From positions 31,612,166 through 31,676,165 of the forward strand of contig CAIIXF020000011.1 of NCBI GenBank assembly GCA_903813345.2: a DNA stretch of 64,000 nt. Reading direction: 5' to 3'. This document shows, piece by piece, positions 17,075-18,477 of the stretch; the first letter of the stretch is position 1, and each line of letters opens with the position of its first letter. The notes beneath the pieces were generated by a model. The model worked only from the letters and a program-made list of their open reading frames with translations. It ran no database searches and was not told the DNA's origin. The DNA comes from Owenia fusiformis (Eukaryota; Annelida; Polychaeta; Sabellida; Oweniidae). The position numbers and the translations under genes were made by a program.

Positions 17075-17745
17075 CCCCAATTACTTGTTACTCAATTACC
17101 ATATTCTGAATATATCAATCATTTGTTACTCGATTACCATATTCTGAATATCTCAATCACTTGTTACTTGATTACCATATTCTGAATATATCAGTCACTT
17201 GAGTTGTTACTCAATTAGCATATTCTGAATATCTCAATCACTAGTTACTCGATTACCATATTCTGGATATCTCAATCACTAGTTACTCAATTACCATATT
17301 CTGAATATATCAGTCACTTGTTACTCAATTACCATATTCTGAATATATCAATCACTTGACACCCAATCAAATCTTACTCGATTAACAACTGCTAAATATA
17401 GATTGTCCCAATTATTTCCCACTCCATTACCATATGCTGAATGTAAGTCATCTTAATCGTTTATTAATTACCGTATTTTGAATATCTCAATCAATGGTCA
17501 CTCAGTTATTATTTGCTGAATATCTTGTTCAATTGTTACTCTGTTACGAGTACTATACAGTATATGCTGAGTATAGATTCCCTCAATCATTTTTTTGTAG
17601 ATTACCATTTGCTGAATATAGGTCGTCCCAATCCTGTGCTAATTGCCATATGTCGAATATCTCAATTACTCTATTAGTTATTTATGCTGAATTAATTTAT
17701 TCAAATTGTTTGTCAATTACCATAAGCTGAATATTTGTTGTCGTC
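17075..17745. repeat. ~37-bp minisatellite overlapping the 3' end of the EctC-like gene
   Basis: About seven close copies (17081-17357) of a ~37-bp unit with the core ATTACCATATTCTGAATAT are followed by degenerate copies to ~17745. Unit variants differ by a few substitutions and one 5-bp insertion. The last degenerate unit (caattaccataagctgaata, 17715-17734) overlaps the coding end of the minus-strand gene. Confidence 0.88.
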
Positions 17746-18477
17746 TCCCTTTGTGAAATCATGCGTTTCGTGGCCTAGCAACGCAGGGAAGAAGTAACAT
17801 ATAGCTTCTGCTCCTTTATCATACAATTCGACATCATGTTGCTCATGCCTGTCGATAAGGATCATTGTACCATCGTGTTTCTCTTCATCAAATTCTTGGG
17901 ACTCTTCACCTCCATTCCATATGTATTTCCCAGAGCCTTTGAACATGAGCACAGCCTCCACGTGGTTTGGGTAATAAAGCGGAGACCTGAAATTGGGGAA
18001 AAGAGTCGTGTTGGTAATTCCAATATTGAAGCCGTCTGCTTTTACAAAAAGTCGTCTGCTGTAGCCTCGTTGCCAAAATACATTCTTGGGAGTACCTACA
18101 ATATCATCAAGACGCCGAACTATAAAACGACCAGGTGTCTGATCCGGTGCGCATGGGACATATCCGATAGATAATCGAATGTCCTCTTTCACCTTGATCG
18201 TTGTAATTGTCTCCGCATTAAGCGCAAGAACATCATCGGCACCAAGCTGGACCTCCTCACCATAAGGCGACGCAGCAACGGCAACCCCGCGCATGACGTA
18301 GTAGGTGTGGTTATATCCAATTTTGTATGGTTTTAATTCTATCACTTGATCTTTCACTAGATGAACATCATAGACAACAAAACCGACATCGTCTTGTTCC
18401 GAGACGAGAACTTTGCCCTTGAGACCCGTTTCTCCAACATCTGAAACCGTCTGCTGGTTTGTTATGATGCATTTCAT
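17713..18477 (-). CDS. EctC-like (ectoine synthase family) bicupin protein
   Basis: The product is 254 residues in one coding exon. The C-terminal half (~131-245) aligns by eye with bacterial L-ectoine synthase, a small cupin that cyclises N-gamma-acetyl-diaminobutyrate to the osmolyte ectoine. Matches include W135...RRLFVKADG, T157/T158, YYPNHVEAV, GSGKY, GTMILIDRHEQH, CYFFPALLGHETHD. Using P. lautus EctC numbering from memory, Glu57 corresponds to E174, His93 to H214, Phe107 to F229, Glu115 to E237 and His117 to H239, but the metal ligand Tyr85 is I206. EctC is only ~130 residues; the N-terminal half here looks like a second, degenerate cupin (NHTYYVMRGVAVAASPYG...ADDVLAL). A splice acceptor 32 nt upstream of the ATG (exon start 18509) implies a 5'UTR intron. 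The last residues and stop lie in a minisatellite. No ectA or ectB is nearby. Substrate is unknown; other cupin isomerases (IolB/KduI type) are weaker alternatives. Confidence 0.85.
   Translation of the reverse strand: MKCIITNQQTVSDVGETGLKGKVLVSEQDDVGFVVYDVHLVKDQVIELKPYKIGYNHTYYVMRGVAVAASPYGEEVQLGADDVLALNAETITTIKVKEDIRLSIGYVPCAPDQTPGRFIVRRLDDIVGTPKNVFWQRGYSRRLFVKADGFNIGITNTTLFPNFRSPLYYPNHVEAVLMFKGSGKYIWNGGEESQEFDEEKHDGTMILIDRHEQHDVELYDKGAEAICYFFPALLGHETHDFTKGDDNKYSAYGN

Follow-up and report, generated by a model that had tools for sequence, protein, structure and literature searches.

An animal bicupin gene of the ectoine synthase type, present in two copies and with a replaced iron ligand

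The stretch of animal DNA analysed here, 64,000 nucleotides long and called the window below, carries on its minus strand (17713..18477) a single open frame of 254 codons plus stop that encodes a bicupin of the ectoine synthase (EctC) type. This EctC-like gene is real, duplicated and nuclear, and it belongs to the animal. The best explanation of the whole, to which we give an even chance, is that the two copies encode a constrained animal bicupin derived from, or standing beside, the orphan type of bacterial EctC, with a changed metal site and a substrate other than that of ectoine synthase. The original prediction had reported a complete 254-residue frame with an EctC signature set, about twice as long as bacterial EctC. 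The limits of the frame proved to be exact (the strand had not been given), the motifs NHVEAV, GTMILIDRHEQH and CYFFPALLGHETHD are all found in it, and the double length is borne out.

Animal EctC-like genes are already known. Passages in PMC5924519 and PMC5796728 cite Harding 2016 for EctC-like sequences in Branchiostoma floridae and Saccoglossus kowalevskii, and a passage in PMC11639872 records PF06339 for two corals, Seriatopora and Favites; the present gene has in common with these reports that it is of EctC type and found in an animal. Neither a two-barrel animal EctC nor a loss of Tyr84 is described in the titles and abstract openings of the open literature, among the matches listed, and a two-barrel variant with Tyr84 replaced may be undescribed. 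With its fused second barrel and swapped metal ligand, a constrained animal protein of this kind would offer a direct way to see whether the fold does chemistry beyond ectoine. It also carries a caution, namely that animal PF06339 genes should not be annotated as ectoine producers.

Two barrels and the metal site

The C-terminal EctC-type barrel comprises residues 118-254 (17716..18126, minus strand), as judged from profile matches, alignment and an AlphaFold2 model. Its predicted homology to EctC is significant over residues 119-240, where the Pfam model Ectoine_synth (PF06339) gives an E of 9.5e-24, and the scores of 84.5 bits for the window copy and 90.5 bits for the paralogue exceed the gathering cut-off of 27. 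The NCBIfam model PRK13290, with its cut-off of 128, is not reached, at 89.9 bits (E 1.3e-25) and 99.5 bits for the window copy and the paralogue, respectively. In a sequence search of the PDB, the best four matches are all L-ectoine synthases (E 3.5e-12 to 7e-12).

The N-terminal barrel (residues 1-117; 18127..18477, minus strand) is weakly EctC-like. An extra cupin-like half had been predicted here, and a second barrel is indeed modelled, but its best-scoring family in both copies is EctC, weakly and below the cut-offs. The E values in the two copies are 1.1e-3 and 5.7e-4 with PF06339 and 4.2e-4 and 3.5e-5 with PRK13290, and Cupin_3 is a close second for the window copy (E 8.3e-3). Against three EctC models the N half scores 11-23 bits, while 1000 shuffled halves reach at most 9.2 bits; against a 67-row EctC model the scores are 12.3 and 21.2 bits, with shuffled halves at most 8.0 (again 1000). 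When this half is compared by hhalign with five EctC proteins of orphan type, the E is 4e-4 but the probability just 34%. The metal residues of EctC are missing from this half. At the place of Glu57, three alignments give His, a gap or Asn, and none gives Glu; the places of Tyr84 and His92 hold the non-ligand residues Leu or Met, and Thr. A remnant metal contact is possible, given that His occupies the Glu57 column in one of the three alignments.

The AlphaFold2 model, calculated from 57 rows, is a bicupin with a mean pLDDT of 85.3 and a pTM of 0.85; 55 of the input rows are single-barrel proteins, so that those rows inform the C half. An earlier prediction from two rows, with a pLDDT of 45, was set aside. 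The best structural matches of the model are themselves bicupins, namely 1sfn (Z 23.9), 1sef (23.4) and 4e2q (23.3), at 14-16% identity. Single-barrel EctC entries do not occur among the best 50 structural matches listed, which says nothing against kinship since bicupins fill the lists; in a Foldseek comparison with viral models, a phage L-ectoine synthase is found at rank 2. Taken together, the protein resembles a pair of EctC-type barrels joined in a single chain. Bacterial EctC is described in a passage of PMC4795551 as a head-to-tail dimer, and because EctC itself is built in this way, a natural reading would be that two such barrels have been fused and that one of them is inactive.

We now consider the active site of the C half. 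The roles of several EctC pocket residues, and the iron triad Glu57/Tyr84/His92, are described in passages of PMC6344544. In the alignment, the equivalents of Ser23, Arg25, Thr40, Tyr52, His55, Glu57, His92, Cys104, Phe106, Glu114 and His116 are unchanged in both copies. Among the iron ligands, Glu57 corresponds to Glu174 (17956..17958, minus strand) and His92/93 to His214 (17836..17838, minus strand). The triad is nevertheless incomplete, as the third ligand, Tyr84/85, is lost in both copies and replaced by Ile206 (17860..17862, minus strand) in the window copy and by Phe in the paralogue. This residue is Tyr in all 40 bacterial rows that were fetched by similarity alone (25 of canonical and 15 of orphan type). 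It is also Tyr in all 81 rows of a set fetched by pattern (L011-L090), for which two patterns were used, one of them containing Tyr84 itself; for 34 of the 81 rows, the other is the only one that fits. The alignment also places Trp135 (18073..18075, minus strand) at the shifted position known from orphan EctC (column 18), with Gly138 at the canonical place of Trp21, and residue 38, which is Asn in the Paenibacillus enzyme of solved structure, is Thr in the animal copies. A four-residue insertion region immediately precedes the second metal motif; it contains His201 (17875..17877, minus strand), which is kept in both copies and could possibly serve as a substitute metal ligand.

With Tyr84 replaced, the C barrel is likely to hold its metal differently or not at all. 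For the enzyme from Sphingopyxis alaskensis, a passage of PMC4795551 gives 29% activity and 9.4 mol% iron for the Tyr85Phe variant. Since that bacterial variant kept 29% of its activity, the replacement makes ectoine synthesis less likely, though still possible.

Both halves are constrained: between the two copies, dN is 0.35 in the N half and 0.30 in the C half, with synonymous sites saturated or nearly so.

Relation to orphan EctC proteins

The prediction of mainly prokaryotic kin is supported, and by score and by most of the informative residues the closest bacterial relatives are the orphan EctC proteins. According to a passage in PMC6344544, the pocket Trp of some of these is displaced by two residues; in our alignment the shift amounts to three columns. 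The shifted Trp, together with Gly at the canonical place, is found in both animal copies, in all 81 rows of L011-L090 and in 15 of the 40 rows fetched by similarity. A comparison of 95 orphan with 20 canonical rows yields 19 diagnostic columns, some of them partly circular because the Trp motif served to group the rows and the fetch patterns contain Cys59 or Tyr84. Both animal copies have the orphan state at seven of these (W18, G21, T38, S48, L50, and a C-terminal S and Y) and are canonical at one (Val59); the window copy alone is canonical at column 119 too. At the remaining columns they mostly match neither majority state. When models are built from equal-size subsamples, orphan models outscore canonical ones on the C half in all 60 cases for the paralogue and 48 of 60 for the window copy, and on the N half in all 60 and in 13 of 60, respectively.

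The rows were assigned as follows. L011-L090 are 80 loci but yield 81 rows, as L085 supplies two that are identical. L088 and L090 are canonical in the tree by a strict motif rule but were grouped with the other, non-canonical rows in the clade tests; the column table counts them as orphan type, and the scoring models omit them. L092 and L106 are of orphan type, though they stand within the 20 rows counted for the active-site table.

In addition to the displaced Trp, Gly21, Thr38, Ser48, Leu50 and the C-terminal S and Y, the animal pair shares with the orphan proteins that no ectAB was recognised. The bacterial proteins differ from it in being single barrels of ca 120-140 residues, in keeping Tyr84, in having Cys59 where the animal pair has Val59, and in being encoded mostly beside adenylation and carrier-protein genes.

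For the tree, 115 bacterial rows were thinned to 69, and the animal pair was added as the only eukaryote sequences. The branch that bears the pair is 2.12 changes per column long and borders on orphan actinobacterial proteins. A clade of the pair with canonical EctC costs 1.0 log unit (AU p 0.456), and the AU p for a clade of the pair with two Porticoccaceae-type rows is 0.412. Bacterial origin by transfer, as put forward in the original prediction, is thus plausible but unproven, the branch being long and the AU test separating none of the alternatives.

Orphan EctC genes, whose function the literature terms unclear in passages of PMC6344544 and PMC5924519, have a recurring neighbourhood. Within at most 8 kb on each side, EctA/EctB probes match at none of 80 orphan loci. 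Probes for adenylation, carrier-protein, ketosynthase, NRPS or acyl-CoA dehydrogenase genes match at 66 of the 80 and no assembly-line probe at the remaining 14; as the probes were taken from orphan loci that had already been inspected, they are biased towards such genes. The ketosynthase counts are not separate evidence, since the PKS probe also detects adenylation domains. In ten canonical control regions, hand-chosen around similarity matches, EctA/EctB are found in nine and assembly-line probes in none. Annotated neighbours of orphan genes include a PKS in Rhizobium gallicum, an NRPS in Mycetohabitans, and AMP-binding, carrier and acyl-CoA dehydrogenase genes in Streptomyces and Burkholderia; the Gloeothece locus is different, with a desaturase, an acetyltransferase and a halogenase. 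These data suggest that orphan EctC proteins act in assembly-line biosynthesis. A solitary gene need not be of the orphan sequence type: two that are canonical in sequence, L008:4007-4402 (Marinobacter) and the control L130, likewise show no nearby ectA/ectB. A transglutaminase-like gene also adjoins 24 of the 80 orphan loci.

Two-barrel forms were sought in bacteria. With the window copy as query, matches were found in 57 of 398 genomes from the phylum of a Porticoccaceae genome and in 4 of 386 from the phylum of a cyanobacterium; the paralogue gave matches in 28 of 296 genomes from the phylum of a Streptomyces. None of these three phylum searches yielded a two-barrel form, and among the places listed all start at residue 104 or later. 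No single place in 65 plasmid records covers 80% of the query; among the best 40 of these 65, two start earlier, at residues 63 and 73, and overlap an annotated gene next door as well. In nine tblastn rows the match begins before residue 103 and thus reaches upstream of the EctC start. Two of them run through a stop, and in the other seven the extension was rejected as a second barrel, the open sequence being unrelated as judged by eye. Upstream of EctC, 17 of 114 loci have at least 100 open residues, and a profile scan of 600 bases in three frames at all 114 detected an EctC-like stretch in L085 only. There, on a Moorena contig (L085:7774-8927), there are two identical EctC copies and a third start, the latter followed by a masked or unknown stretch. 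The identical copies and the run of N point to a probable assembly artefact, and we therefore reject this locus as a bacterial two-barrel form.

Five phage records match the C half only, two of them with annotated ectoine synthase/ParB proteins. In MN313256, MK016501, NC_026590 and KJ567043, the annotation of the EctC-matching phage protein reads ectoine synthase/ParB multidomain or ParB-like. Viral contigs searched with both copies gave no confirmed relatives, and of 33 stretches obtained by scanning genome contigs with the two-copy alignment none was confirmed as a relative.

Proposed function and alternatives

In the mechanism that we favour, the N-terminal barrel, lacking the EctC metal residues, would probably be a built-in partner of the C barrel and take the place of the second subunit of the EctC dimer. 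The C barrel, which according to the alignment keeps Glu57, His92 and most pocket residues, would most likely close the ring of a small amino-acid-like amide with loss of water, or catalyze the reverse. Its substrate would be other than N-gamma-acetyl-diaminobutyrate, and the protein would act outside any osmolyte pathway of the bacterial kind. A more specific version is tentative, and we consider it rather unlikely in its full detail: an EctC dimer fused into a new cyclising enzyme with one dead and one re-tooled barrel, giving a cyclic amidine or lactam-like product by chemistry related to that of orphan EctC in bacterial assembly-line clusters. In our assessment, what the orphan group does is no sure guide to the chemistry of the animal protein.

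A non-enzymatic cupin, i.e. a small-molecule sensor or carrier that lost catalysis along with the iron ligand, is about one chance in a handful. Such a role agrees with a C half short of one ligand, with an N half devoid of the EctC metal residues, and with constraint on both halves. On the other hand, Glu57, His92 and nearly the entire pocket are kept in both copies, which seems to go beyond the needs of binding alone.

Somewhat less probable is a working ectoine synthase without EctA and EctB, which would obtain N-gamma-acetyl-diaminobutyrate from food or symbionts, or restore ectoine from its breakdown product. The substrate residues are mostly kept. As in EctC (PF06339; PDB 5bxx, 5onm), the C half has the same fold family with Glu57, His92, Tyr52, Thr40, Arg25, Ser23 and Phe106 in place. 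There is also a bacterial precedent, as a passage in PMC5924519, a review that calls the data not yet conclusive, reports ectoine production by Pseudomonas syringae, which has a solitary ectC, upon addition of leaves of its host. The animal protein, however, is twice as long as EctC and comes from an animal host, and it has Tyr84 replaced in both copies, a changed Trp21 place and Thr instead of Asn at residue 38, with no ectA/ectB recognised. A search of the animal genome, limited in sensitivity as exon-split genes can be missed, gave no match for EctA and a single one for EctB, at 34.9 bits against a cut-off of 552.2. EctD gave no match in this genome, and its controls gave no signal either. 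The animal is expected to have EctB-related aminotransferases. These absences are weak evidence, since intron-split genes can escape detection and even related aminotransferases were barely detected in the EctB search. The ectoine or osmolyte role raised in the original prediction is thus disfavoured by the replacement of one of three iron ligands in both copies, by the genome searches within their limited sensitivity, and by the closest bacterial kin being orphan proteins. Judged from its sequence, the animal protein is probably not an ectoine synthase.

Less probable again, and in our view improbable, is a hydrolase working like (S)-ureidoglycine aminohydrolase, a bicupin in which the C-terminal barrel is the active one. 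Its structure 4e2q has the same overall two-barrel fold and length, and superimposes with an rmsd of 2.3 over 217 residues (Foldseek E 1.6e-13), tied with 1sfn and 1sef. The identity to 4e2q is only 14%, however, the metal motif of the animal protein is of EctC type, and EctC is the sole NCBIfam match listed up to an E of 5; the shared fold by itself shows no function.

Genomic setting

Compared with our preferred reading of a duplicated animal gene, bacterial contamination or an assembly error is extremely improbable and was rejected: the EctC family is mainly prokaryotic, but two diverged copies lie on two different large contigs, animal domains are found close to the window copy, and a two-barrel relative is absent among the bacterial ones examined.

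The open frame exceeds what chance would give, the longest open runs in 20 simulated windows of 64 kb with the same dinucleotide make-up being 121 to 170 codons. The genome comprises 498 Mb in 525 contigs, and a DNA search found two EctC-like copies only. The paralogue is an intact frame of 259 residues, 60% identical across the whole length, on a separate contig of 35.8 Mb (G000:C2:17039531). Only the coding sequence aligns between the two copies when the window copy, with ca 4 kb of flank to either side, is compared by blastn with 9.5 kb around the paralogue. Searches for COX1, which would have told the mitochondrial code, and for a mollusc haemocyanin domain as a phylum marker gave no match, and the controls of the haemocyanin search gave no signal either.

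The predicted animal-gene surroundings were also found. Among ten neighbouring frames scanned in the window, two match Death and one FYVE_2 above the cut-offs, with Ig models in one frame staying below, and in agreement with the prediction no ectA or ectB was recognised among the window frames examined. The window has no Rfam match at gathering score and no tRNA, and megablast against E. coli genomes gave no match. A possible polyadenylation signal AATAAA lies shortly 3' of the stop (17696..17701, minus strand), a weak indication given 187 AATAAA in the window.

Two repeats were observed near the copies. Close to the paralogue (L117:6644-7285), a YIYLYRSPVP-like peptide recurs in minus-strand open frames, as from a tandem repeat. 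Downstream of the window copy, an AT-rich tandem array spans 17078-17358, with 7.3 copies of a 38-base unit.
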